Positions 1,186 through 49,600 of a stretch of 64,000 nucleotides of DNA are shown here, in pieces. The position numbers and the translations under genes were made by a program. The stretch is from positions 58,488,330 to 58,552,329 of the forward strand of contig CM060324.1 of NCBI GenBank assembly GCA_030674155.1. Reading direction: 5' to 3'. Under the pieces are notes generated by a model. The model was not told the DNA's origin, did no database searches, and saw only the letters and a program-made list of their open reading frames with translations. The stretch comes from Stramonita haemastoma. Its lineage: Eukaryota > Mollusca > Gastropoda > Neogastropoda > Muricidae. Numbering within the stretch: the first letter of the stretch is position 1; the number at the start of each line of letters is the position of its first letter.

Positions 1186-7798
<6,613 letters not shown>

Positions 7799-24777: not shown

Positions 24778-25254
24778 CTACAGAAGAGATCTTACTGGGG
24801 AAGAATATATAACCTCAGCAACTGATGTTATGAACTGCTGAGAGTCATACAACACTTCTTGAATAGTGGCATATCTTTTTTTAATATCTATTCCTCTCCT
24901 TTTAAAAAGGTCAATAAGAATTGGGCAATCAAACAATAAGTGGTGGATTGAAAGAGGTTGAGAACAGCAACATGACACGTTTTTAGAATATTTGGTATTC
25001 CATGCATTCAACCTCAGTTTATACATTAAAATTTCTAGTTTACGTGAACATGAAATACGTTCAAAATGTGATGTCTTCATTTTGGAATGCATTCTATTCA
25101 TTAATCTTGCACTAATTTCATACGAGGACAATACAAGATTGGAATCAAACGTTTCAATACTACGATCAGAGGCACCTTGTTTTGCTAATGAATCAACCAA
25201 CTCATTCCAATAAATTCCACAGTGAGAAGGGACCCAACATAAAGTTATCTGCAA
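24778..25254 (-). CDS. Retrotransposon ORF2, part 3: RNase H end and Cys/His tail
   Basis: Continues RNase H with ITLCWVPSHCGIYWNELVD and LAKQGAS, then a C-terminal domain with a zinc-knuckle-like CCCSQPLSIHHLLFDCPIL. It ends PVRSLL then TAG, directly followed by the TA repeat. A one-base frame change near 25255 separates it from part 2. Confidence 0.88.
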   Translation of the reverse strand: MQITLCWVPSHCGIYWNELVDSLAKQGASDRSIETFDSNLVLSSYEISARLMNRMHSKMKTSHFERISCSRKLEILMYKLRLNAWNTKYSKNVSCCCSQPLSIHHLLFDCPILIDLFKRRGIDIKKRYATIQEVLYDSQQFITSVAEVIYSSPVRSLL

Positions 25255-27349
25255 TACAATGTATCAAAAATTTAATCTCAAATATAATATCCGTCCTTAT
25301 TTTCCCTTGCCAATTATTTAGTGCCTGCAATACTGCTTTTGAATCAACACAAAAAAGTATGTGGCAAATATCAAGAGCCATATCAGACAAAAACTTCAAG
25401 GCCATAAAAATTGCAAATAATTCAGACGTAAAAATGGAAAAATGTTCTCCTAAATGAAACAACTTTTGTACTTTTAAAGCAGGAATCACAAATGCTGCGC
25501 CACTTCTGCCTGATTCCAATACAGATCCATCAGTATACACTTTTAAATAATTGGAATAATTACATTCAATGTGGCTTTTTACATCAACAGTGAGAAGATT
25601 TTGATCTTCATTCTTTTTTACATCCGTGTAATCAATGTCAAAGCTAGCTGAAATATGTTCCCACGGAGGCATTAGGGGAACCATCGGTAAATTTGGAATC
25701 GTTGCTATGTCAATGCCAATTTCTTTCATTAATGAATTAGTATAATTTTTAATTGGCAGCAGAAATGAAATATCGCATGCTCGTTTTGGATAATCAGTGT
25801 CTTGATCCATAAGTATTTCATCTTTTACTGAATTTGGAATAGATAGACTCCGAATCACGTACTTTGATACCGCCAATCTTCGTTGATCAGAAAGAGATAA
25901 CAAATGTGCTTCTTTATAAGTATTAGCTGTGTTAGCATGTGTTGGAACACCAAGTGCTATCTTTATGGCTTTACTGTCTAAACTTTGTAATTTTTTAAGC
26001 AGATAATCTGCAGCAGAAAAATAAACTTCTTGTCCATAGATTAATTTTGAGCGTACTAAAGATTGAGCCAAATGTATCAGTGTTTTAGTATCTTGACTCC
26101 ATGCCTGAAAACTTATTACTTTTAAAAAGTTCAGTCTTTTTCTAGCCTCGGTTATTAAGTGGTCGATGTGCATCTTCCAGCTCAACTTTCTAGTTAAAAT
26201 TACGCCTAAGAATTTTACATATGGTTTATACTTAAGCACTGTTCCTTCTAATTTTAGGGTTGGTAATTTTGATGGATTTTCACCATTATTAAAGAGCACA
26301 AGACATGTTTTTTCTGCAGATAGTTCTAACTTATTTTCCTTCATAAAGTTACAGAATTTATTTAATTCATCTTGATATAAATGTTCAACATAATTGGTAA
26401 CTCTCTTTTTGGTGTTTTTCCTAACTGAAGTATTTATCCATATTGCGATATCATCAGCATACTGAACGACTTGAGTATTAGTTGACAAACAACTAGGGAG
26501 ATCATGTACAAGAATAGAAAACAACATGGGAGCAAGCACTGATCCCTGCGGTATACCTAAATTGATAGATTTATAGGATGAGTAAGCTGAGCCCAATTTA
26601 GTGCAGATTGATCTATTAGATAAAAAATTGTGAAGATATTTATATAACATTCCATTGATACCAATATTCTTCAATTTATGCAACAATTTTTCATGACAGA
26701 CTCTATCGTATGCTTTCTTCACATCAAAGAATGTGGCTAACACACTTTTCCTTCTGGCAAATTGTTTTTTAATCTGGTGAGTTAATTTAACTAAGTGATC
26801 AGAAGTACATCTCCCCTTTCGAAAGCCAGCCTGATTAGTTGGGATAACATTATTCTTTTCACAATAATGAAACAGACGCTTATGTATAATTTTTTCCATT
26901 ACTTTACCCACATGTGAAGTAAGAGCAATTGGTCTATAACTATCTATTGATGACCTCAACTTACCTTTCTTAAGGATTGGAACTACTATAGACTGCCTCC
27001 AGATACTAGGAAGAGTGCCATTTATCCAACACTTTTGGAAAAATGAATAAAGTAGTCTTTTCCATTTTAAAGGCATATGGGCCAGCATTTGATAAGATAC
27101 ACCATCAGGACCAACTGCTGTCTTGTTAAAAGTAAATGAATCTAAGGTTTCAATAAATTCATCATATTGAAGAGGAGCATTCAAATAATCCGCATTACAT
27201 GATATATTTTCTAATTTGTCTAGCTTTTCTGAAGAGTCATAACTTTTGATGTCTGATTGAAGCTTTAAGGATGAACTATTATCTGCAAACATTGTAGAAA
27301 AGGCTTCTGCTTTTTCAAATATGCTTGGAAATCTGTTTTTTTTTTTCAA
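25202..27349 (-). CDS. Retrotransposon ORF2, part 2: reverse transcriptase and RNase H
   Basis: 715 open codons. RT landmarks: AVGPDGVSYQML, YRPIALTSHVGKVMEKI, NQAGFRKGRCTSDHL, ATFFDVKKAYDRV, INLGIPQGSVLAPMLF and the catalytic YADDIAIW (about 26440-26463). RNase H begins KVYTDGSVLESGRSG with the second acidic site in SELFAIFMAL and the third in LFCVDSKAV. The frame then breaks near 25255, just before the last RNase H block. No internal stop. Confidence 0.92.
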   Translation of the reverse strand: MKKKNRFPSIFEKAEAFSTMFADNSSSLKLQSDIKSYDSSEKLDKLENISCNADYLNAPLQYDEFIETLDSFTFNKTAVGPDGVSYQMLAHMPLKWKRLLYSFFQKCWINGTLPSIWRQSIVVPILKKGKLRSSIDSYRPIALTSHVGKVMEKIIHKRLFHYCEKNNVIPTNQAGFRKGRCTSDHLVKLTHQIKKQFARRKSVLATFFDVKKAYDRVCHEKLLHKLKNIGINGMLYKYLHNFLSNRSICTKLGSAYSSYKSINLGIPQGSVLAPMLFSILVHDLPSCLSTNTQVVQYADDIAIWINTSVRKNTKKRVTNYVEHLYQDELNKFCNFMKENKLELSAEKTCLVLFNNGENPSKLPTLKLEGTVLKYKPYVKFLGVILTRKLSWKMHIDHLITEARKRLNFLKVISFQAWSQDTKTLIHLAQSLVRSKLIYGQEVYFSAADYLLKKLQSLDSKAIKIALGVPTHANTANTYKEAHLLSLSDQRRLAVSKYVIRSLSIPNSVKDEILMDQDTDYPKRACDISFLLPIKNYTNSLMKEIGIDIATIPNLPMVPLMPPWEHISASFDIDYTDVKKNEDQNLLTVDVKSHIECNYSNYLKVYTDGSVLESGRSGAAFVIPALKVQKLFHLGEHFSIFTSELFAIFMALKFLSDMALDICHILFCVDSKAVLQALNNWQGKIRTDIIFEIKFLIHCIADNFMLGPFSLWNLLE

Positions 27350-28565
27350 ATTTGATTGGAAACGATGGGAGTTGAAATCCGTTTTTCATTTCAGTAACTT
27401 TCTTCCAAACTTTATGCATGTCCTTGGATTCTGAAACTTCATTAATACAGAATTCTGTCCAATAATTGTTTTTTGCCTGAGCAATTGTTTTCTTACTATG
27501 ACTTTTAGCATATTTCATACGAATAAAGTTTTCCTCTGATTGGTTTTTTAACCATATTTTATACTGTTCCTTTTTATAGTTTACGGCATCCTCACATTCT
27601 TTAGTCCACCATTTATTGCCTGATCGTTTTCCATTCTTCCTGATTTTGCGTTTGGGAATAGAAAACTCAGCTGCTAGAATGAGCATTGCCACAAAATTTG
27701 AATAAAATTTATCAACATCATCCTCAGCAATCGTTTCAATATCAATACCTTGAAGAAACGAATGAAATGAACTCCAGTTAGCTAATTTATATATAAATTG
27801 AGGGATTTTATCCTCAATATGTGGTCGATCTGATGCTGAAAAGTCCTCAAATGACAATGTGATTGGAAAATGATCACTTCCGAGGCAATCCTCTTCAACA
27901 TTCCATGTGCAGTTAATAGCTAATCCTGGAGATACTAAGGCTAAGTCAATGGCACTGGGTTTATGGGTAGAAACATCAGGAATTCTGGTTACTCTACCAT
28001 CATTCAATAAGTAAAGCTTCGAATCTACAATATTTTCTATTAAACGATTGCTAGTGATGGTAGAGCATGCAGAGTCCCAAAAAGGAGCATGAGCATTGAA
28101 ATCTCCAAGAATAATCCATTTATGCTTAGTGAAGTCTGTGTTTTTTAACCAGTCAGTATTGTCATTTTTCGGACCTTGGGGTAAATAAACAGACACTACA
28201 TTTAGTATTTCATCCTTGTTAAGTTTGACTGTCACCCCAGTGTGATACATATCTACTGTACTTTGCACGATAGGAGATATCACTAGCTTTTCATAGTCTA
28301 GACCCTGCCTAACATATATGGCAGATTTTACTCTAGAGTTATTATCACAATCACATAATGGAGGGTAATAATAATTTGTCAATTTAGGCATTTTCATTTT
28401 GTCCACATTCAAAGACTGGAGTGCTAATATAGCATAGTTATCAGTTGTTAAAAATTGTGTCAAGTCCAACAGATTGGTGGCTATGCTCCGAGCATTCCAC
28501 TGTAAAATTTTAACTCCTGTAGAGAGATGTAATGTCCTGTCCAAGCTTGTCTTCATGTTATACAT
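27315..28565 (-). CDS. Retrotransposon ORF2, part 1: APE-type endonuclease
   Basis: Starts MYNMKTSLDRTLHL and reads VKILQWNARSI (N of the first block), NVVSVYLPQGP, WIILGDFNAHAPFWDS (the GDFNAH block), SAIDLALVSP and LGSDHFPITLSF (the SDH block). All landmark motifs of the apurinic/apyrimidinic-like LINE endonuclease are present. The frame ends at a run of ten Ts (As on this strand) near 27340, from which the RT frame continues. Confidence 0.9.
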   Translation of the reverse strand: MYNMKTSLDRTLHLSTGVKILQWNARSIATNLLDLTQFLTTDNYAILALQSLNVDKMKMPKLTNYYYPPLCDCDNNSRVKSAIYVRQGLDYEKLVISPIVQSTVDMYHTGVTVKLNKDEILNVVSVYLPQGPKNDNTDWLKNTDFTKHKWIILGDFNAHAPFWDSACSTITSNRLIENIVDSKLYLLNDGRVTRIPDVSTHKPSAIDLALVSPGLAINCTWNVEEDCLGSDHFPITLSFEDFSASDRPHIEDKIPQFIYKLANWSSFHSFLQGIDIETIAEDDVDKFYSNFVAMLILAAEFSIPKRKIRKNGKRSGNKWWTKECEDAVNYKKEQYKIWLKNQSEENFIRMKYAKSHSKKTIAQAKNNYWTEFCINEVSESKDMHKVWKKVTEMKNGFQLPSFPIKFEKKKQISKHI

Positions 28566-28846
28566 TTGTTTGTTATATTATTTTGTGTTCTGATTGTAGT
28601 CAACAACAATATGCAACCCAATTGAAAAAAACAACAACAAACTAATGGCCCACCTCACATACACACATACATACGCAAGTAAGTAACAGGAAAAAATGGA
28701 GGGGGGGGGGGGGGGGGGATTTAGACACAGACCAGTGAGGAATAGTGTAAATAACAATGAAAAGTCCATGATGGAAGATGGTGATGTTTGGGAAGATCTT
28801 GCTCTGAAAAGATAATTATATACTGCCATGAAGAAGCGTAAGGATC
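28566..28846 (-). other. Spacer between retrotransposon ORF1 and ORF2
   Basis: About 280 bp with a run of about 18 Gs (plus strand, 28699-28718). No conserved coding seen; an overlapping frame of 95 codons here is not supported. Confidence 0.6.
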
Positions 28847-30147
28847 TTAATGACGAAACGCCCATGGGGGAGGTAGCGGGTACGGTGCAGGCGGCAGTGG
28901 GTGGCCAGGTCTGTCAGTCCATGGATTGCCACAGAAAGAACGGCCTGTGTTGCTGGCGCCGAATCCCCCGCGTCTCTGTCGTCTTCGTGGACGTTCCCAG
29001 AACAGCTGACATAGGTGGCGGCCCAAGGCTCTTGCAACGTTGCCAGCACCGTAGTTATTCAAGTGAATTTCATCTTGAAGATGTTTGGATGGATGAATAT
29101 TCTCATATGCCAGGTAGGAAACGTTGTTGATATCTTCATTTACTATTTCGGAATAAGCGTGAGCATTGAACACGACCCGTCTTGCTTCTAGATGCTGTTG
29201 ATTCACTGGAGTGGCCCTGCTGCATACGACATGGGTCTTGGGGAAGATCTTCTGGACAGCCTTTACAGCTGCTGCCATGGCTTTGCCACATGTTGCAGGA
29301 TCTTTCCCTTTGATGTCGTTGATGCCTGCATGCAGCACGACACACTCTGGGGCCGGTTCAAGCTCCTTGCTAGCTTCTTGGGCCACTTTCGTTATGTTGT
29401 CAATGGTGTAAGCTTTTTTCTTCGCCACCTGAAGGCCGTATGACAATGCCAAACGTGATGGATTTATTTTATTCATTGTCGAGTCGTGCAAAATGAGCAC
29501 ACGTGGCATGTCTGACTCAATTTCTTTGACCTGAGAAGTCGACTGCTTGGAGAACCCTTTCATCTTTTCTTCATTTTGCGTCGTTCTTTGGTTTACGTCA
29601 CTGAACTTGACGTCATTCCTCGACTCTGGTTTTGCTTTTATTCTTTTTGCGGTCTTTTTATCTTTTTTTAAGTCCTGCCCTGCTCTCACACTGCTCAAGG
29701 CTTTAGGGGATGGGTAAGTGATGCCTGCATTGAGTTTGACTGCATCAGCGTAAGAGACAGGGGGAGATTTTACGGATTCTGCATGTTGTTGTTTGGCAGT
29801 CCGACTGTCTTTCTGTTGGCAAAGTGCTATGAGATTTGCGATTTTTTCATTCTGTTCGCCAACAGTTTTTTCTAAGTTTCCAATGCGCTCACACAAGACC
29901 GTGATAATATTTTTAAGATCAAATATTGAGCTCACTGCGACAGATGGCACAGATGGCGTGATCCCAGTAAGCCATGGGAGCGTTCCATCCTAACGGCCTG
30001 CTTGTTTGTTGAGCAGGGTGTCGAATCGTCCGTCGAAACGTTGTTATCCGTCTTGTAGGAGCTTGCTCTTGACTTTTTCTTGGAGCTGTTCTTCTCCATG
30101 ACTGGGGCGGTTGTTAAATTTGGACCCTTGCTCCTAGTTCTAGTCAT
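28847..30147 (-). CDS. Retrotransposon ORF1: coiled coil plus SGNH-esterase-like domain
   Basis: Starts at MTRTRSKGPNLT (30147) with a Lys/Ser-rich N-terminus; one frame change is needed between about 29950 and 30000 to enter the 367-codon frame. Then come a heptad-like segment (LCERIGNLEKTVGEQNEKI), a Lys-rich linker and an SGNH-type domain: VLILHDST (block I, nucleophile Ser), VVLHAGINDI (block III, G-x-N-D) and DEIHLNNYGA (block V, D-x-x-H). The C-terminus is Arg/Gly/Pro-rich. Esterase ORF1 proteins are known from CR1-like LINEs. It probably binds element RNA; hydrolase activity is inferred only from the motifs. Confidence 0.82.
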
Positions 30148-31223: not shown

Positions 31224-31367
31224 ATGGCAACACCAAAGTTGAATCTTGTTGTGGCAGCCTGCAATAACGGCGGTATCGGAATAGAGGGCCGCATCCCATG
31301 GAGAATCAAACAGGATCTTCGTTTCTTCAAAAAAATCACAACCACCACACAGGATGCAGAGAAACAG
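31224..31367 (+). CDS. DHFR: DHFR exon 1
   Basis: MATPKLNLVVAACNNGG to TTTTQDAEKQ, 48 codons; donor CAG/GTAATT. The break after KQ sits just before the (L/A)VIMG strand. Confidence 0.97.
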
Positions 31368-31488
31368 GTAATTAAAAAAAAAAATCACTTTGAATTCTTC
31401 GAACTTGATTTGGATATTAATATATTATGGTTGGGACTGGATGCCAAAAAGCTTATTCCATTATTCTTGATATGAAAGGATAAAAATG

Positions 31489-31580
<92 letters not shown>

Positions 31581-31915
31581 GATGATAGCCTAAACCGAGG
31601 CCCTGTGTGTGAACGCACACAGAACATCTTGCGCACACGTTGAATCCTGTTCAGCTTTTCGTAAGAGTAGGCCATCGTGTGCTGGTGGGAACAGATGCCA
31701 TTTAGTGATTTACAAAACTGCAAACACAGGGGGACTGGATGTAAAAAAAAAAAGCACTAGAGTGCTTATCCCATTATCCTTGATATAAAAGAATAAAATA
31801 AAAATGAAATAAATAAAACATGCACTCACACACACGTGTAGTTGTAGTGAGTATACAAGTACTATAGCTATAGTATTGGAGTATGTACAGGTAAACACAC
31901 CACACACACACACAC

Positions 31916-31982
<67 letters not shown>

Positions 31983-34874
31983 CACACATGTATACACACA
32001 CTCTGTGTCTGTCTGTCTGTCTGTGTGTGTGTTTTCTCTCTCTCTCTCCAATCCAATCCAATCATGTTTAATACCCCCACTGACCACACAGGCCATAATG
32101 GGGCTGTCACCTCGTCACATTTTAAAACTCATATTAAATACCCCTGGGGTCACACAGTTTATTCAGTGTGAAACTTGGTGTCAAAGGGAAGTAATTTTTA
32201 CATCTTTCAATAGTCAATACACAAAAAACTGAGGGCGCTAATGGGCGCTACAGGGTTACGTTATAAAGGGGCGCTAATGGGCGCAGCAGGGGGATAAGGG
32301 TGTTATTAAAACTGTGCAACTATACACAGATTTAAATGGGGTATAAAACCTCTCCCTCTCTCTGTCTGTCTCACACACACACCACACGCGCACACACATG
32401 CACACACACACACACACAGGTGTTTTTTTTTTAATTAAAAAGTTTAAAATTAGATGTGAATAGTCAAACTGAAGATATCACACACTGTCCTCATCTGCTC
32501 AGACTCAGACTCAGATTAATCTTGTTAAAGTTTTGTCACTAGAACTGTTCTTTATTTTTATGCAGCAAAGGTCACAAGGTGTAATGAAAATTACAAGAGA
32601 TTTAAATTTATTTCTGCACAGTTTTTGTTGAGTGTTTTTTTACTCCAGGAAAACCAAGGCAGACCTCATGTCCTCAATTAAAAAATTTAAATAGAGGGGT
32701 ACTTTTCAGTAAACTGAGACTGAGACCAATTCATTTTTCAGTCTGAAAACACTCACATGGCGATCATTTCATCTTCCCAAAATATTCACCTCTGGCCACA
32801 CATTTCTGCATTCGCTCAATCCATTATACAATTGTAGAAATAACGATCTATAGGCCTCTCTAGTTGGTATGTGTGCCAGACACAGAAAAACCTTTGTTCC
32901 CAAGTTTTCTCATTTTTAAACTGTCCTGCCAGTGCCTGGTACTTCTTCAGTTGGGGGAGAGAAAGAGGTAAAAGTTACAAGGTGTAACTGTAACAGTAAG
33001 TAAGGTTTGGGAAGTATGGAGGTTGTGGCAAAGTTTCAGTGATCTTCACGAGATACCATTGTATGAACTTTGACCAGTGAGTAAACTGTCCATTGTTGTG
33101 TTGGATCTTGGTTCCCCTCATCCAGTGTTTGGTCGGTCAGCTGCATGAGTCTCTGTAGTTCTAACTCACCTGTGACCATCTGGCCTTACTTGTAAGGTTT
33201 CTGGGAAGTGGCTACAACTAGATTCTGGCTGGACATTTTATCTTATAGTACATGTATGTATTCGTACATGTATATGTATACATGTAATATACATGTGTAT
33301 TCATGATAGTTTATCTCCATTGTCCTGATACTGTTTCAGTTTATCTCCATCGGCATTGTCATGATACTGTTTCAGAATGCAGTGTGATAGTGTATCTCCA
33401 TTGTTTCAGAATGCAGTGTGATTGTGTATCTCCATTGTATCAGAATGCAGTGTGATAATTTATCTCCATTGTTTCAGAATGCAGTGTGATAATTTATGTC
33501 CATTGTTTCAGAATGCATTGTGATAGTGTATCTCCATTGTTTCAGAATGCAGTGTGATAGTTTATCTCCACTGTTTCAGAATGCAGAGTGATAATTTATC
33601 TCCACTGTTTCAGAATGCAGAGTGATACTATGGTGTATCTCCATTGTTTCAGAATGCAGTGTGATAATTTATCTCCATTGTTTCAGAATGCATTGTGATA
33701 GTGTATCTCCATTGTTTCAGAATGCAGTGTGATAGTTTATCTCCACTGTTTCAGAATGCAGAGTGATAATTTATCTCCACTGTTTCAGAATGCAGAGTGA
33801 TACTATGGTGTATCTCCATTGTTTCAGAATGCAGTGTGATAATTTATCTCCATTGTTTCAGAATGCAGTGTGATAATTTATCTCCATTGTTTCAGAATGC
33901 AGTGTGATAATTTATCTCCATTGTTTCAGAATGCAGTGTGATAATTTATCTCCATTGTTTCAGAATGCAGTGTGATAATTTGTCTCCATTTCAGAATGCA
34001 GTGTGATAATTTGTCTCCATTGTTTCAGAATGCAGTGTGATAATTTATCTCCATTGTTTCAGAATGCAGTGTGATAATGTATCTCCATTGTTTCAGAATG
34101 CAGTGTGATAATTTGTCTCCATTGTTTCAGAATGCAGTGTGATAATTTATCCCCATTGTTTCAGAATGCAGTGTGATAATTTATCTCCATTGTTTCAGAA
34201 TGCAGAGTGATACTATGGTGTATCTCCATTGTTTCAGAATGCAGTGTGATAATTTATCTCCATTGTTTCAGAATGCAGTGTGATAATTTATCTCCATTGT
34301 TTCAGAATGCAGAGTGATACTATGGTGTATCTCCACTGTTTCAGAATGCAGAGTGATACTATGGTGTATCCCCACTGTTTCAGAATGCAGTGTGATAATT
34401 TATCTCCATTGTTTCAGAATGCAGAGTGATAGTTTATCTCCATTGTTTCAGAATGCAGTCATCATGGGCAGGAAGACCTGGTTCTCCATCCCGGAGAAGT
34501 TCCGCCCCCTGCCAGGTCGCGTCAACGTGGTGCTGAGTCGCGAGTTGCCGCAAGTTCCGGAAGGCGCTCACCTGGCTCGCAGTTTGTCAGAGGCCATCAG
34601 CATGTTGACCTCTGGCCCCCTGAGCTCCAAGGTGGAGTCCCTCTTCGTCATCGGGGGAAGCTCCGTCTACGAGGAAGCCATGGCCTCCAACAAAATCCCT
34701 TGTCGCTTGTACCTGACCCGTGTTCTGGGCGACTTTACCTGCGACACCTTCATACCTGCTGTGGATGACCGCTTCCAGAAAGTTCCCAATCCTGACACCT
34801 GCCCTGCCGAGGTTCTGACAGAAGACGGCATTGACTTTCAGTTTGAAGTGTATGAAAAGGACCTGGCTTGTTGA
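31224..34874 (+). CDS. DHFR: Dihydrofolate reductase, complete two-exon gene
   Basis: Reduces dihydrofolate to tetrahydrofolate with NADPH for thymidylate and purine synthesis in the cytosol. Exon 1 (31224-31367, 48 codons) joins exon 2 (34452-34874, 140 codons plus TGA) in phase 0; the 188-aa protein matches the usual animal length of about 187. Motifs: AACNNGGIGIEGRIPW (N-terminal strand and Met20-type loop), QDLRFF with the acidic active-site residue as Asp31 (Glu in vertebrates), VIMGRKTWFSIP, RVNVVLSRE, and VIGGSSVYEEAM for NADPH binding; it ends FEVYEKDLAC. The ATG was chosen because it gives the normal N-terminus; there is a TTG seven codons upstream in frame. The 3.1-kb intron holds SINE A copies, CA repeats, a mariner relic and a splice-site array. 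Confidence 0.97.
31425..31582. repeat. SINE A tail remnant and CA microsatellite
   Basis: GGGACTGGATGCCAAAAAGC and CTTGATATGAAAGGATAAAA, then about 44 CA units (31490-31578). Confidence 0.88.
31586..31815 (+). repeat. SINE family A, 3' two-thirds
   Basis: TAAACCGAGGCCCTGTGTGT, GAACGCACACAGAACATCTT, CGTAAGAGTAGGCCATCGTG, tail GATATAAAAGAATAAAAT. Confidence 0.92.
31895..31980. repeat. CA microsatellite
   Basis: CA repeats with ACAAC interruptions. Confidence 0.95.
32745..33090 (-). pseudogene. Mariner-family transposase relic
   Basis: The minus strand, across frames, reads KITETLPQPPYFPNLT (cf. LPHPPYSPDLAP), TPCNFYLF, LKKYQALAGQF, and then WIERMQKCVARGEYFGK, the usual C-terminal end of mariner transposases. 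Stops and frameshifts are frequent. No terminal inverted repeats were identified. Confidence 0.65.
33370..34451 (+). repeat. 34-bp minisatellite carrying copies of the DHFR exon 2 splice acceptor
   Basis: About 31 copies of a mostly 34-bp unit (some about 40 bp) made of CCATTGTTTCAG/AATGCAG plus TGTGATAATTTATCT or variants. The slash is the splice point of the genuine acceptor, which forms the last unit at 34440-34458. Variants after AATGCA include GTGTGATAA, GAGTGATACTATGG and TTGTGATAG. Confidence 0.96.
34452..34874 (+). CDS. DHFR: DHFR exon 2
   Basis: Begins NAVIMGRKTWF straight after the acceptor CCATTGTTTCAG and runs to the TGA at 34872-34874. The GC-rich coding sequence contrasts with the AT-rich array before it. 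Confidence 0.97.
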   Translation, partial: NAVIMGRKTWFSIPEKFRPLPGRVNVVLSRELPQVPEGAHLARSLSEAISMLTSGPLSSKVESLFVIGGSSVYEEAMASNKIPCRLYLTRVLGDFTCDTFIPAVDDRFQKVPNPDTCPAEVLTEDGIDFQFEVYEKDLAC

Positions 34875-40535: not shown

Positions 40536-43534
40536 CTGAAACACACCACCATAGGTAACCACCCTGAAATACATAACCACCCTGAAATATACACCACGCA
40601 GATAACTACCCTGAAATATACACCACACATAACCACCCTGAAATGTACACCACGCAGATAACCACCCTAAAATATACACCACACATAACCACCCTGAAAT
40701 ATACACCACACAGATAACTACCCTGAAATATACACCACACAAATAACTACCCTGTCTTACCTTATATACACTGCACAGGTGACCACCCTGTCTTAACTAA
40801 CATACACCACACACATGGGGACGGGATAGTCTAGTAGAACATTGTGCTCGCAATTTGATGACCCCGAGTTTGATTCCTGCTCGAGGGGATTTTTTCCTCC
40901 TGGAGTTAACATCAGTGCTGACTCCACTCTCCCCAAAAGTCCTTCGGATGAGACTGTAAACCGAGGCCCTTTGGTCAAACACACGCAGAACATCTTGAGC
41001 ACATGTTAAACCCTGTTCCGCTTTTTGTAAGAATAGATCATCATGTGCCAGTGGGAACAGATGGCAAGATTTACAAAACTGCATACACATGGGGATTGGG
41101 TGTAAAAAAGCACATAAGTGCTTATTCCATTATCCTCGATATAAAAGAATAAATAAATATAAAAGAATAAATAAATAAATAAAAATAACATACACCGCAC
41201 ACATGACTACCCTGGCCTAACTAACATACACCACACCAAAACTTAACACACCAAAAAAATCATCTGTACATCACAGTCAGTTTGAACATGCAGGAAAAAA
41301 AATCCCTGAACAGACATCTACCTCCATGACAGCAAATACCCTTCATATTTTTCTTCCCCTGAATTACACTCCCCAAAAAGAAAACAGAAAAACACCACAA
41401 TACAAACTTGCACATTTTTCATACGTCCTATGCTCTGTGTCTATAAAATAAAGGCCACAGATGACATGAACATGGAATCTTATCTTGGCAAAATTGCACA
41501 CAAAGCTGTTCCCCCTGTCACCCACAGTCGACAAGTCCTGTTGCCCCCGACAACCCACCTTCTTTGTGACGGCGTTGGTCTGGTCCACAGGTTTGTGAGG
41601 GGCGCTGACGGCCGACGTCTGAGGCGTGGTCCCCAGGCGCGGCGCGGTGGTGGAGGTGGGGATGGGGGAGTCTGGGGCGGTGGCGGTGGCGGCGCCCAGG
41701 ATGTTGGAGAGGGGGGAGGTGGGGGTGGTGGACTTGAGGTTGATGTTGATGGGCCGGGCTTGTGCACCAGGCGCTGAGGGGCCTCCTTCTGATCCGCCTG
41801 CTCTTTGGCTGAGGATGGTCATGATGCACACACACAACAATAGCAGGGATGAGCAAATATCGTCAGGGTCTTGGGGGGGGGGGGGTCTTTTTCTCCTTCA
41901 CTTTGCACTCCGTGAAGGAGACAGGAATGGACTGAATACAGCTCTTCACTGGTCTGGGGGGGGGGGGGGGGGGGGTCTTTGCACTCAGTAAAAGAGACAG
42001 GAATGGACAGAACATGACAAACAGCTCTTCACTGAGCTAGGGGGAGGGTCTTTGCACTCAGTGAAAGAAACAGAACTTCTATGTGACCAACAGATATATA
42101 ACTAGTGGCCTTCAAAAATTAATCACTTAACTCAACTAACTGATTTTCACCGTTTCTGAAGGCCCCTAATTATGTGCCTGTTGGTGACACAGAAATTTTG
42201 TTCCAGCCAGTTTACTTGTCTTTTCAAATCTTGCTTTTCATTCACCTCTTTAATCATGCGTAACCTTCTCTTTTACCTTTTTTCTTGGGCTTATTCCAAA
42301 ACTTCATCACTTACAATTTTTTTTTTTTTTTCATATTTTTTCTTCTGATTTTTTTTTTTCTATGTCAGCGTAGATCTTTTTCTTCCAATTGTCAGTCCAA
42401 TTTCTTCAAGCAACTTATCAATTTCCACCCTCATCTCGATCAACTGTGAAAAATGGTTGCTTGTTGCAATTTGGCAACTCAGTGTAATAAAAACAATCTG
42501 GATTTTAGATGGAACTTAACAAAAGACCTTTCAGTTTGTAATCTACTCTCTGATCATTCTCTACATCAGCAAAGCCCTACTACACACAGCTGAATCCCCC
42601 CCCCCCCCTCTCCCCCCAGGCCGTTCTTTGTATTTTCTTTATTTTATACCACTTTATGTCACAGCAGATTTCTCTGCGTGAAATTCAGGCTGTTCTACCT
42701 GGGGAGAGCGTCGTCACAAGTACAGCGCCTACCCATTTTTTTCTCTTCTTTTCCCTGCATGCAAGTATTTGTTTTTCTATCAGAGTGGCTTTTTTTCCTA
42801 CAGAATTTTGCCAGGGTCAACCCCCTTGTTGCCGTGGGTTCTTTTACGTGCGCTAAACAGTGATGTGTAACACACGGGACCTCGGTTTATCGTCCCATCT
42901 GAAAGACTAGGTCTTCTCACCTTTCTTCTGCTCCCAGATCTTGTGGATGTTGTCCAGGTCAGCGTCCAGCTTGTGTTTGAGGAGGTCAGACATGGGGGGC
43001 GACCCCTCCCCATCCTCGGGCTCCTCCTCCTCCTCAAACCACAGCTCCTCCTCCTCCTCCAGGCTGCGGATCTCCCGGCGGAACCGGCTGTTGCGCAGGA
43101 ACGAAGCTGCATGCCTGGGGAGACATGGAGACTCTTGTACTACAGGGGTACATACGTTACTGCTGTGTGAAGTTATCCTAGTCTCTTTTTTGTACACTCG
43201 AAGCTGCGTGCCTGGCGAGACATGGGGACTCTTGTACTACAGGGATACATACATCACTGCTGTGTGAATGTATCCTAGTCTCTTTTTTTGTACGCTGGTC
43301 CCATATGTGCATGCAAAGTAAAACACTTTGTGTTCTATTCTCTCAGATTCCAGCGTATGCATACAAGGTAACTTTGCAATTTTCAGAGTATGTACACAAA
43401 AGTAGCTTCATAGTTCTCACCACATATACACAAGCTATAGAACTTTCAACTTAGTAGTTACTCCTTTTTTTTTTCTTCTTCTGTTTTACTGTTAGTTTCA
43501 CATGTGTGTGTGTGTGTGTGTGTGTGTTTTGTGT

Positions 43535-43687: not shown

Positions 43688-46600
43688 GCATGCGCGTGCG
43701 CATGTGTTTGTGGGCATGTATGCGTGCTCCATATGTGTGTGTGAGCATGTGCATGTGTGTATACCTATCTATGAACAGTCAGTCAGAAAGACAGGCAGGC
43801 ACACAGACACACACACAAACTGGCTGTCTGCCTACTTACCCCTCCATGTTGACTTTGTCCTTGAGGCGGTCTTGCTGCTGGTCGTAGCGCAGCTTCAGGG
43901 TCTCAAAGGTCTTCACATACTTCACACCCTCCAGCTCCTTCTGGAAGTTCTCCACTACGTGCCGTGCTCAGCACCCTTGATGTCCTCCTGCACACACCAC
44001 ACCACACAATCATGTCCTCCCTAGTCCACAACCACACCACACACAATCATGTCTCCTGCCCACACCCACACAAAGCCTGACAATCATGTCCTCCTGTCCA
44101 CACACACACAAAGCCTGACAATCATGGTCCTCCTGCCCACACCAACACAAAGCCTGACAATCATTGTCCTCTTGTCCCACACCACACACAAGCCTGACAA
44201 TGATGTTCTCTAGCTCACATCACACAAAGTCTCAATGATGTCCTTGCTTTTCACCACTGTCATGCCAGTAGGCATCCATCAGTGTCAGAAGACTATGGAG
44301 TTGCACTTTAGGCTCTAGAGCACAAAGGCTGGGTAAGTAAGTACGGAGGGCAAGCTGTTACCCGTGCAGCAGACCTGTCTTTTCCTGTCTGCATGTTGAT
44401 TTGTTTTCCTATCAAAGTGGCTTTTCTCTACAGAATTTTGCCAGGGGCAACTCTCTTGCTGCTGTGTTTTTCTTCTTCTTATATACACTAAATGTGTGTT
44501 GCACCCAGAACCTGGGTTTATCATCTCATCCAAAAGACTAGCACCCAGACCACCATTCAAGGTCTAGTGGATGGGGAAAGTTTTAGACACAAACAGGGAT
44601 TGAATCACCACACACTTCAAATCCGGACTTTTCTCTTTTTAGGCAGGCGTGTTACTTCTAGAACCCCTATCGACTGAGGTATATAGTACAGTACATAGGT
44701 TCACTGAGGTGTTAAGTTATAAGTCTGTCCCGAGCCATAAGGCTCATCAGGCGGTGCTTATCCCGGTTATCGTGGCTTTTAAGCGACTGAGAGTCATAGA
44801 CTTCCCCTGGATAGGAACGCAGTCTATCGCAGGGTTAACCCCCAACACAAGGTTGGTACCCCTTTTACACCTGGGTGGGGTGAGAAAATAGCCGTTAAAG
44901 TGCCTTTTCCAAGGGCACAACGCCATAGCGGAATAGCTGGGATCGAACCCGCAACCTTTAGGTTACGAGTACAACGCCCTAACCACTAGGCCACAGCGGC
45001 GGCTCACTGAGGTGTACCAGTGTATTATTTCTGACCTTTTTAGGGGGTGGTGGTGGTGCTGTCAGCGCACAACTACAAAGAAAGAATATCTTTTCATTAA
45101 ACACTGAATCTGAAATCAATTATTCCTACTTGAACCATGGAAGAAAGAATGAAGTACAGTAAAATCAAGTCAACATCCTACAACAGGTGCAAACTGGCAG
45201 GAACTTCTTGTTACACTGAAAGACATATCTGTGTTATTTTTATTCTGTGACATATATCTAAACACATTCTGCACAGCATGGGGGAAACTGTATCTCCCAC
45301 TATCACGCCTAAACAATAGATGACAAAATCAACAAAAACCAAAAAAACAAGTCTGTAAAACAAAACCCGACATCGATGACCTCTCATTTCAATGGTGGCT
45401 TAACATATACCCCCCAAATTTATCTGGCTGCAAAAACTGATGTTGACGAATAAATGAATTCAAAATGAAGACCCTGAGGGAACAAATGAACATTATTTCA
45501 AAAAGAGGAGCACTAGTAAACAAGCACTAACCCACAGCAGTCCAAAACACGATCTTTTCACACCTGCCTTTCAGGCAAAGCCCTCTCTTTCCCATTCCTC
45601 CACCAGTCAAGCACACTGCGCTACTCACCACCTTGATGAACTCAAAGAGCTCGATAAGCGCGGAGTTGAGGAGGTTGTATCTGTCCCCGTTGCGCAGGAA
45701 GAGGTTGATGATGGGCTTGAAGAGGTTGTTCTTGATGATGTGGCGGTAGTAGTTCTCCTCCTTCAGACCAATGATCTTCCTCATGAAACGTAAGGCACCT
45801 GAAGCAACACACACAGCAATACAGACATGGGGGAAACTGCATCTCACACTCACTCACTCACTCAGTCCCAAAGACATAGGGGGGACATGAGAGAAGACGC
45901 AACAGAGATCTTTTTCCATGCTTATGAATACTCCCCCCCCCCCCCCCCTCCCAGTTTAGTCCTTTGCATCTTGTGCACATGTTAAAAGCTGTTCCGCTCA
46001 CAGTGTGCAAATCCAGCATCACTCAGTCAAGAGTGCGAAATTTAGTGCACCCCTTCAATTCAATTCAAACATTTTATTATCTCAAAAACAGAGATATTCA
46101 TGTGGGTTACAAGCCGTGCATAAGAAATAAATAGGAAAAATGTTCATCACAGAGGAATTGACACAGAACAGTATGCAACCATTACCTCAGACACACTACA
46201 AGACGATACGTCATGGCAGTGAACACTCATTTTGTGTGAAGTGGCGGCAATCTATGTAAAAAATCATTTGATTTCGTGTGATGGAAGATACTTGGCAGCA
46301 TACCGAAATGACTTGACAACAGTTATTTCAAAGCCTTGTTGCATTTAAATAGCGTTAAAACAATGTATGACGTTGAAATTGCCAGGTAGCCAAGAAGTGC
46401 ATTGGGCAAAACTTAGCACTGCTTGATTCAGTCCGATTGCAATAAATTTTTCCAAAGTTTTTCAAAAATATCCCACAACCCTTCTTACCTCATCATCTCT
46501 GTCACAGTTTAAATCAACCAAATCCAGCCTCTAAAACTCCTCCTCGCTGTCAATATCATGAAAAAACCCCCCCAAAAACCCTTGCAAAATACTTCAACTA

Positions 46601-49600
46601 ATTCGGGCGCAAACACGTGGCCGCCATTTTGCTTTCAGGTGAAAGAGGCTGGTCCGAAAAAAACCCCACCCGACCCTCTAAACCAATCAGAATCCTCGTT
46701 GCGTGCGACTGTGGAACCAACTTCAACCATTTCTGTGGCCCTACAAAGGCCATCACGTTCATTGGGTGACCTTAGATAGCAAAAGTGAGCCTTCAATTAC
46801 GATCACCAACCACATCCCAGTAATATTCGGGAGCCACCAAGCTCAACATTCCCGGTATAATCCAGGAACCGTGCAGCTAGGGTTAACCAAAGCGACTCAC
46901 AGAGAACGAGGAAGGCGTGTGCTTGGATGCCAGCAGCACGAGGACTCGCTTGAGGAGGTCCCTGTGGGTGATGTACTGGCGGATGTGGTAGGTGTGGTGC
47001 TCCACACAGAACGACAGCAGCTCCAGGATCAGGCTCAGCAGCTGGGCCGTCTGGTAGTCGTCTGCAACAACACCACACACACACACCACACACACACGCA
47101 CACACACAACACACACGCAGACACACACACACATGAGTAAAGTTGTTGCTGTGCGCTCCCCGGCTTAACAGCACCCTGAGGGTCACCCAGAATGTGCACT
47201 CTTCGACTCACTCATCCCACACTGTGCGACTGAAATTGCATACTGGATGAAAAGTTTGCCTGTATGACTGTTTTTAAAGTAACTCGCCATACAGGCAGCC
47301 ATACTTCGACCGGAGGATTTTTTCTCTCATAACCTTCTAGCCTGCCCCATTTGCCGTTTGGGATTGGCAGATAAACCATGCCTCTCATGCTGCCATGTGA
47401 TGGGTACCATTCCACAACATTGGTCATGTGTCCTGACTCTGCTCAAGCACTTTATATAGGTAATTACTTCCTTAAATCTTTATACTTAATAAAAATCAGT
47501 TTGTTTACAATCGCTCAAAATTTAATTCACAAGATTGTTGTTTTACTACAGTCACCCTTTTTTTTGAGGGGTGGGGTGGTGTTCCCTGGCAAATGGGGTT
47601 TTCCTCTCAGCCAAAAAAACCAACTGATTTTTTCTGAGCAATTGAAAAAAAAAAAGATGAAGAATATTCAAGAACAATTATCTCAATGCAAATTTTTATA
47701 TACTTGTCCTATAGTTTTAATTTTCAAGTGTTCGATTTACTCTGCATTCCTGATAGCATATTTTTAAAAGATAATCTCAACATTTTGTGATTAAATGGCT
47801 CTCTTTTTCCTGAAAGGATAAAAACAATAGTTTTGCAACATGTTTTAACAGACACTTTCAAAGAGCGTAGATCAAAAGATCTTTCTCTCTTGTTTTAACA
47901 AACATTTTTTTCAAAAAGTGTGTAGATCAAAAGCATCTTTTATCTCTTGTTTTAACAGAATTTTTTTTCAAAGTGTGTAGATCAGAAGCATCTTTCATCT
48001 GCACACAGGATGATCTACAGCAGAAGTCAGTGTTCCCTCACCTCGACTGGGTTTCTCGTCAGCAGTGTTGGCGAAGAGAGGGGCGGTGAGGACATGCATG
48101 CTGTGCTTGTAGAAAAACGTCAGGAACTCCGTTTTCTCCGACTTCTGAAATGTACAGGCGTTATATAGAAATCACTTTGACACATATATTCTCTTAGCAA
48201 ACCAAGAGGGAAGTTTGCTGACTGATTAAACATTTCCTGGTCTCTCTCTCTTTTTTTTTTCAAACTCCCATGAATCAAACTGGCTACAGTAAAATATTAT
48301 CAATAGCAAACCTCCCCATCAAGAAATACAGAAATTTATGCCAGAAAATAAAAATATGACGAAATATATTGTACAGATTCTCATGGAAATCATTTCAATT
48401 TATAGATCTGGATTCAACTTTTCCAGAGCGGACTGTTCGAGAAGCATTTCTACTTTTGGAGTGACAAAACTCTAAATTTTTCCCATACCACTGATATAAA
48501 CCAATCATATATGAATGTATATAATCTCTCTCTATTTTTCTCTATCTATATCAATTATCAAAAACAAATAAGTAAAAACTGCTGCATATAACTGATCCAT
48601 ACACCATAGGCATTAAACTTCATAAGGAAGAGAGTATACAGTTGACTGTTGATGTAATGCTGTTTTCCATGGACCTGGAAAGGAAGAAGAGCATGTTATG
48701 TGGCTGAAGGACTTACACTGGCAGTGGCCAGCATGTTTTCTGGATCCAGCAGCAGACGCAGGATTCCCATCAACTGCATGGCACCCCCAGCTCTGCACAC
48801 AGTCCATGACATGACATAATAATAATAATGTATGGAGTTTATATAGCGCTATATCTTGTAAAGCAAACAAATTGAAACGCTTGCATTCAAATGAGTCGCA
48901 CGCATGCAACCATTCACAAATGAATTAACAAACTATATATTTATACAAATGCAAACACACACATACATGCGCGCCATAACACACAGTGATGGAGATGGAG
49001 AAGGCTGAATGAAAATAGGGACAGATGTGAGGTGTAATGATGGAGGAAGATCCTAGGTAGGAAATGAGTATGTCTTTAGACTGGATTTGAAAGTGTTCAA
49101 TGAAGGGATTTGGCGAAGGGACAGAGGGAGGTCATTCCAGATAGATGGACCTGAAACAGTGAAAGAATGACCGCCGACACGGGACTGTTTGAACCTGGGT
49201 ATTTTTAAGCACATGGTATCTGCAGCAGAACTGAGGGAATGAGGAGTGTACACTAGAAGACAGTCACAGAGAGAGGAAGGTGCAGTCTTGTGTAGACATT
49301 GTAGCAGAGGGTACTGATCTTATTTCACTCTCTGTGCAACAGGTAGCCAGTGAAGAGATCCCAAGAGAGGAGTTAAATATGTTCTGATATCTTCTTTCTG
49401 TGGGCAATACACAACCCTCCACCAATATGCAAGGGCATCACTCTGACTATACCAAAGTGTAGGCTACATCATGGCTGTCAGTTTCCCCCACTTTCAGCTA
49501 CTCTCATAATCTTTTATCCAATCCATCCCATCCCAGCTATTGTTGAACATTATCAGTAGGGGATTTACTAGGCGGTGTCCTTCCCATGTTAGCTCAGAAC

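Follow-up and report, generated by a model that had tools for sequence, protein, structure and literature searches.

The last approximately 1.1 kb of the DHFR intron in Stramonita haemastoma is filled by a tandem array. Its unit combines the acceptor of exon 2 with the bases that open this exon (TTTCAG|AATGCAG). The best reading of the array is that of a mirage, a known kind of repeat, and it is notable for holding 31 intact decoys. Our full reading, to which we give a probability of roughly 0.7, is that this mirage originated by duplication and that most transcripts would be spliced at the AG ending at 34451 by way of exon definition. We infer the duplication origin, the position of the branch point, exon definition and the actual splice usage from the sequence. 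Positions are those of the window, by which we mean the whole 64-kb stretch of DNA that was analysed.

Mirages are tandem repeats that span an exon-intron boundary. They were first described in lancelets and are reported from the amphioxus genes Adh3, BflGb6, BflGb9, PGBD5 and TnC in the available text of two papers (PMC3087553, PMC3902484), the second of which adds PGBD5 and cites TnC.

The DHFR gene and its intronic array

31224..31367 (+): DHFR coding exon 1, 48 codons (MATPKL...AEKQ), with the donor GTAATT after it; placed by alignment with gastropod DHFRs
31368..34451 (+): DHFR intron, 3084 bp, phase 0
33301..33375 (+): degenerate left edge of the array, with two acceptor-like stretches, the first being TTTCAG at 33334-33339 without exon bases after it
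33376..34451 (+): array of 31 units, the commonest being AATGCAGTGTGATAATTTATCTCCATTGTTTCAG; decoy AGs end at 33375 to 34417 and the genuine AG ends at 34451
34423..34424 (+): the one other frame-keeping AG among those tested in the intron; its use would insert SDSLSPLFQ, nine residues, ahead of N49
34452..34874 (+): DHFR coding exon 2 with stop codon, GC 0.567; the ORF that contains it matches Pfam DHFR_1

Joining 31224-31367 to 34452-34874 gives an intact DHFR of 188 aa, and its best database match is the DHFR of Babylonia areolata (84% identity over 99% of the query). The match to the annotated Nucella lapillus DHFR is confined to exon 2, where a gap-free comparison gives 115/136 identical residues for Nucella versus 108/135 for Babylonia; both species belong to the Neogastropoda. 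The KQ|NAV junction aligns with the Babylonia DHFR, which by homology makes AG 34451 the correct junction. The initial annotation had placed the genuine splice site in the last unit of the array, and the intact frame together with this alignment argues that it was correct. It had also called this the only DHFR intron, which holds for the coding sequence; there may still be an intron in the 5' UTR.

TRF reports the array at 33368-34459 with a period of 34, 31.5 copies and 91% matches. On the plus strand CAGAATGCA occurs 32 times in the 64 kb, every time inside the array, and on the minus strand it occurs once. The 32nd plus-strand copy is the genuine exon 2 junction, which leaves 31 decoys. The units are 34 bp (n=25), 39 bp (n=5) or 31 bp (n=1) long, and no unit is missing from the series. 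Each one runs from the copied exon bases through a branch-point-like GTGATA and a pyrimidine-rich stretch to the AG. The description of the unit as the acceptor plus the first exon bases, also taken from the initial annotation, agrees with our counts: the first six exon bases are present in 31/31 decoys (a figure set by the search pattern, with no unit left over), the seventh in 29/31 and the eighth in 23/31.

The 31 units fall into 15 types, one of which accounts for 11/31. A block of neighbouring units is repeated within the array, as seen both from a TRF period of 175 bp and from the order of the units. Nine of the 31 are singletons: the two left-most units, the last one and several inner ones. 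In a mirage the inner copies are expected to be homogenised and the outermost ones spared, a pattern that is not clean here. There are 74 AGs in the 1076 nt of the array and its GC content is 0.354. When we compared the 24 bases at the DHFR junction with their surroundings, the next best match in 1.3 kb reached 22/24, versus at most 16/24 in 60 Markov shuffles, a null too lenient for testing targeting. The anatomy shows three features of a mirage, namely a minisatellite-like array that ends at an exon, units that hold both intron and exon sequence, and a copied splice signal.

Predicted proteins from other snails bear on how widespread the array is. Three contig-predicted proteins (P0020, P0022, P0023) read from the intron into QNAV, and P0039 also appears to read through the acceptor, its intron position being less sure (MK before NAV). 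Judged from these protein models, the intron position is common to other snails, less surely so for P0039. The read-through upstream of the acceptor covers 54 nt in P0020 and 69 nt in P0039, each longer than one 34-bp unit, and in these two stretches the copied exon start was not found; a Cys-Val run or a hydrophobic stretch is there instead. The read-through in P0022 (27 nt) and P0023 (24 nt) is too short to tell. These two cases suggest that gastropods do not generally carry the array.

Choice among the acceptors

All 31 decoys retain the AG and 30 of them retain TTTCAG. Between -19 and +7, 10/31 are identical to the genuine site and 25/31 have at most one mismatch. The 19-mer given in the initial annotation, CCATTGTTTCAG|AATGCAG, is exact in 20/31 decoys and within one mismatch in 29/31, and GCAG lies seven bases past the acceptor AG in most copies. 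The estimate of about 31 near-identical AGs ahead of the genuine site thus stands, and the immediate sequence cannot separate most decoys from the genuine site. Because 10 decoys are identical over these 26 bases, whatever picks the winner must, as far as the sequences compared here can tell, lie outside the immediate site.

Scoring each unit with a splice-site model had been proposed. On a crude matrix built from the 15 other acceptors in the window, 20/31 decoys equal or exceed the genuine site. Among the 173 intron AGs the genuine site ranks only 7th, outscored by six that lie outside the array, so the matrix is a poor discriminator and we dropped it as an arbiter.

Splicing at any of the 31 decoys is predicted to lead to a stop after 51 residues. 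The shortened proteins would end in ...KQNAV (21/31), ...KQNAE (8/31) or ...KQNAL (2/31). The 31 stops count as one event because the stop is inherited when a unit is copied. The intact frame is kept by 2 of the 173 intron AGs examined (2/77 from 33300 on), the genuine AG included. Since the stop after a decoy lies downstream of the only coding junction, decay that depends on the exon-junction complex would not be expected.

The array would have been seeded by a tandem duplication across the intron/exon 2 boundary of DHFR; the copied exon bases in the units point to the true junction as the seed. The minisatellite would then have grown and been partly homogenised inside the intron, where extra copies leave the coding sequence unchanged. 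Each unit could act as a self-contained acceptor, with the branch-point-like GTGATA, the pyrimidine-rich stretch and TTTCAG, followed by the copied exon bases.

According to the portions of PMC10655562 and PMC1431707 available to us, scanning starts at the branch point and takes the first AG, except that AGs nearer than about 12-15 nt are skipped. The acceptor AGs of the array lie 19-30 nt below the preceding AG (36 nt for the first, 19 nt for the genuine one). Under this rule, such spacing would confine the genuine site's branch point to the last unit or its margin, and the real site would be usable only if a branch point were committed there. With the branch point in the last unit, the decision would fall at branch-point and U2AF binding. 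By consensus, the branch point of the genuine site looks weak: a strict yTnAy search finds only TTTAT about 16 nt upstream, and GTGAT is matched by a relaxed branch-point rule only.

The likely discriminator is exon definition, because only the last unit is joined to a real, GC-rich coding exon. Enhancer-like purine-rich motifs in exon 2 would mark that unit. As a crude stand-in for enhancers, with no null, we counted GAR-type tetramers: the array has 0.00 per 100 nt, against 3.07 for exon 2 as a whole and 5.00 for its first 60 nt. Most transcripts would then use AG 34451 and some mis-splicing would be lost as truncated products of 51 aa. In classical competition tests the donor-proximal acceptor often wins, which would predict splicing noise.

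Two familiar arrangements of acceptors do not describe this intron. A distant branch point exon with an AG exclusion zone was rejected since the previous AG is just 19 nt upstream of the genuine one. A NAGNAG-type tandem acceptor was rejected as well, the acceptor units being 31-39 bp apart. In the accessible part of PMC1431707, the exons with AG exclusion zones and distant branch points follow the same AG-choice rule as the DHFR array, but their layout is the opposite, since the DHFR array is full of AGs.

Repeats elsewhere in the window

DHFR is neighboured by PP4R3 (Pfam PF04802) on the minus strand, which we mapped by tblastn and checked against snail proteins. Its best matches are in Nucella (91%), Littorina (87%), Batillaria (86%) and Babylonia (85%); the Babylonia match is perhaps a paralogue, because Nucella has a second copy at 80%. 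Judged by the DHFR and PP4R3 matches, the host is probably a neogastropod near Nucella. The following repeats lie before its exons:

43988..44243 (-): mirage-like array before PP4R3 exon 11; its seven units, 33-39 bp long, all open with a version of the exon start (GAGGACAT...)
43115..43293 (-): mirage-like repeat before PP4R3 exon 12, a two-copy 97-bp duplication of the acceptor and first 13 exon bases (12/13 identical), with the copied junction at 43211
40536..40754 (-): acceptor-like array before the last PP4R3 exon, seven TT[T/C][C/T]AG sites 18-29 bp apart, before the genuine one

In the exon 11 array about 8 exon bases are copied. The units at 44132, 44093, 44055 and 44020 come directly after an AG, and the three oldest-looking units do not. 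The exon 11 and exon 12 acceptors share the anatomy of the DHFR array. Copied exon bases were not detected in the array before the last exon, where the junction test gave 16/24, within the null.

We made two further observations on this gene. The Batillaria attramentaria PP4R3 model P0123 departs from the other snail proteins just past the exon 10/11 junction, possibly because a wrong acceptor was picked at the corresponding position of that snail. The exons near 48790, 46910 and 43980 (-) are otherwise well conserved but lose their frame in low-complexity tracts, probably through residual assembly indels.

Counting non-overlapping local copies of the junction at a threshold of at least 19/24, we found them at 3/16 acceptors and 0/15 donors (the donor positions of PP4R3 E9 and E11 are one base off). 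The background is high: 15.3% of all 24-mers in the window have such a copy (13.4% without the three arrays), and against it 3/14 acceptors gives P 0.37 (0.29 without the three arrays) and 3/16 gives P 0.45. Among 962 pseudo-acceptors the share is 8.5%, which gives P 0.15. The 0/15 for donors has P 0.08. Of the 2493 24-mers that lie wholly within DHFR or PP4R3 exons as mapped (exon 13 with an approximate end), 6 have local copies. A looser, post hoc count of intron ends at least half within a TRF array gave 7/16 acceptors (one exactly half) versus 16.9% cover (p 0.011) and 3/15 donors (p 0.48); for periods of at least 10 it gave 6/16 acceptors (p 0.009) and 1/15 donors. We set aside a special targeting of acceptors as not shown, junction copies being no commoner than the repeat background of the window predicts.

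There are other repeats in the window. A galactosyltransferase-like gene (-) has its acceptor at 4682 preceded by an 11-bp, 49-copy array at 4690-5211, with zero AG in 521 bp versus 12.3 expected from base composition. This is a possible AG exclusion zone built by a repeat, the opposite of the situation in DHFR. A short tandem repeat at 7281-7435 (-), in an Asp/Ser/Thr-rich open frame upstream of the galactosyltransferase domains, is perhaps a coding minisatellite. At 25202-29989 (-) there are ORFs like those of a non-LTR retrotransposon, with an endonuclease and with a reverse transcriptase plus RNase H; a further ORF upstream has a GDSL match below threshold. A search of the window against Rfam gave no match at gathering scores.

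Rival readings and known mirages

The array might instead work as a splicing attenuator, in which the decoy-spliced fraction rises with copy number and the length of the array sets DHFR dosage. It would suit this reading, which we regard as unlikely, that the AG and the early stop are kept in 31/31 decoys, that 20/31 score at or above the genuine site on the crude matrix and that decoy-spliced mRNAs would not be expected to be cleared by exon-junction-dependent decay. However, the inherited stop reduces that 31/31 to a single event, there is no significant sign of selection on the decoy cores (variable columns 1/12 in the core versus 9/22 in the others, Fisher p 0.06), and amphioxus mirages are reported with normal splicing in the parts of PMC3087553 and PMC3902484 available. 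The stronger form of the idea would have decoy copy number quantitatively set the amount of correct DHFR mRNA, making the array a fast-changing, length-tunable attenuator, perhaps with many counterparts in a genome whose acceptors repeatedly gain minisatellites; we think this quite improbable. Residual assembly indels are suggested by PP4R3 coding exons E7, E9 and E11, which break frame in low-complexity tracts, and raise the question of whether the array or its copy number is real. Even so, we find an artefact very improbable given 15 unit types among 31, an intact DHFR frame, a window without N and similar repeats at two other acceptors. The window also holds other arrays of about 1 kb, as a long-read assembly would.

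Secondary structure in the RNA could hide the decoys and expose the last site, and the last six units with the exon start do fold better than shuffles (z -3.67; 1/200 shuffles as good). Pairing between repeated units can be trivial, however, and among the 32 sites the genuine one is predicted to have ordinary or low openness. Its ranks for branch region, pyrimidine stretch and AG (1 being most open) are 18, 9 and 16 at span 60; 26, 31 and 27 at span 120; and 19, 17 and 9 at span 250. Predicted folding does not single out the genuine site, and we set this masking aside as having very little chance of being right. We give least credence of all to re-splicing, in which decoys would be used first and then removed through a weak donor-like GCA|GTGTGA six bases on, with Asn-Ala added in frame per round. 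Many decoys carry the GT (seventh base G in 29/31, eighth base T in 23/31) and an AATGCA micro-exon would keep the frame. Donor consensus has G at -1, which the donor-like site is without, and there is no Asn-Ala repeat at this place in the 25 proteins read or the 24 rows aligned, which come from other species and are mostly annotation models.

A mirage spliced mostly at its last site is the reading that we set beside the known systems. Like the DHFR array, the amphioxus mirages have minisatellite-like units across an intron/exon boundary, often with a splice signal, in the available text. BflGb6 is close in that the 3' end of the intron and the start of the next exon are repeated, in units of 150-160 bp with 6 and 3 copies in two haplotypes; the BflGb9 unit is 157 bp and the Adh3 units are 10-72 bp, as cited there (PMC3087553). 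The DHFR array differs in its 34-bp unit, its 31 decoys with every AG kept and its occurrence in a mollusc, compared with the 150-160 bp and 6 copies of BflGb6. It is known from the sequence of one assembly, whereas the amphioxus mirages are also known from RNA and haplotypes, and for them RT-PCR suggests regular splicing (PMC3087553, available portions). In human genes within segmental duplications, variable internal tandem repeats sit at exon-intron boundaries and affect splicing (PMC2812944); as far as the accessible text goes, these involve alternative transcripts and novel introns in recent primate paralogs, whereas in DHFR a single true site follows a series of decoy acceptors.

By title or start of abstract, none of the matches listed in our literature searches (including the best 20 of 40 and the best 20 of 81, subscription papers being outside their scope) was a molluscan mirage, and the main text of a gastropod intron paper (PMC7931591) does not mention repeats or minisatellites. 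As far as this search shows, our findings extend mirages to a mollusc, at three acceptors in two neighbouring genes. The available text of PMC3087553 proposes mirage repeats as a road to new introns, and the DHFR array is fresh material for that idea. If the attenuator reading were true, the array would be a length-tunable brake on the folate enzyme DHFR. In any case, it is a natural 32-way acceptor competition in a gene with one coding intron, and RNA data would show to what extent exon definition outweighs the strength of a site and its proximity to the donor.
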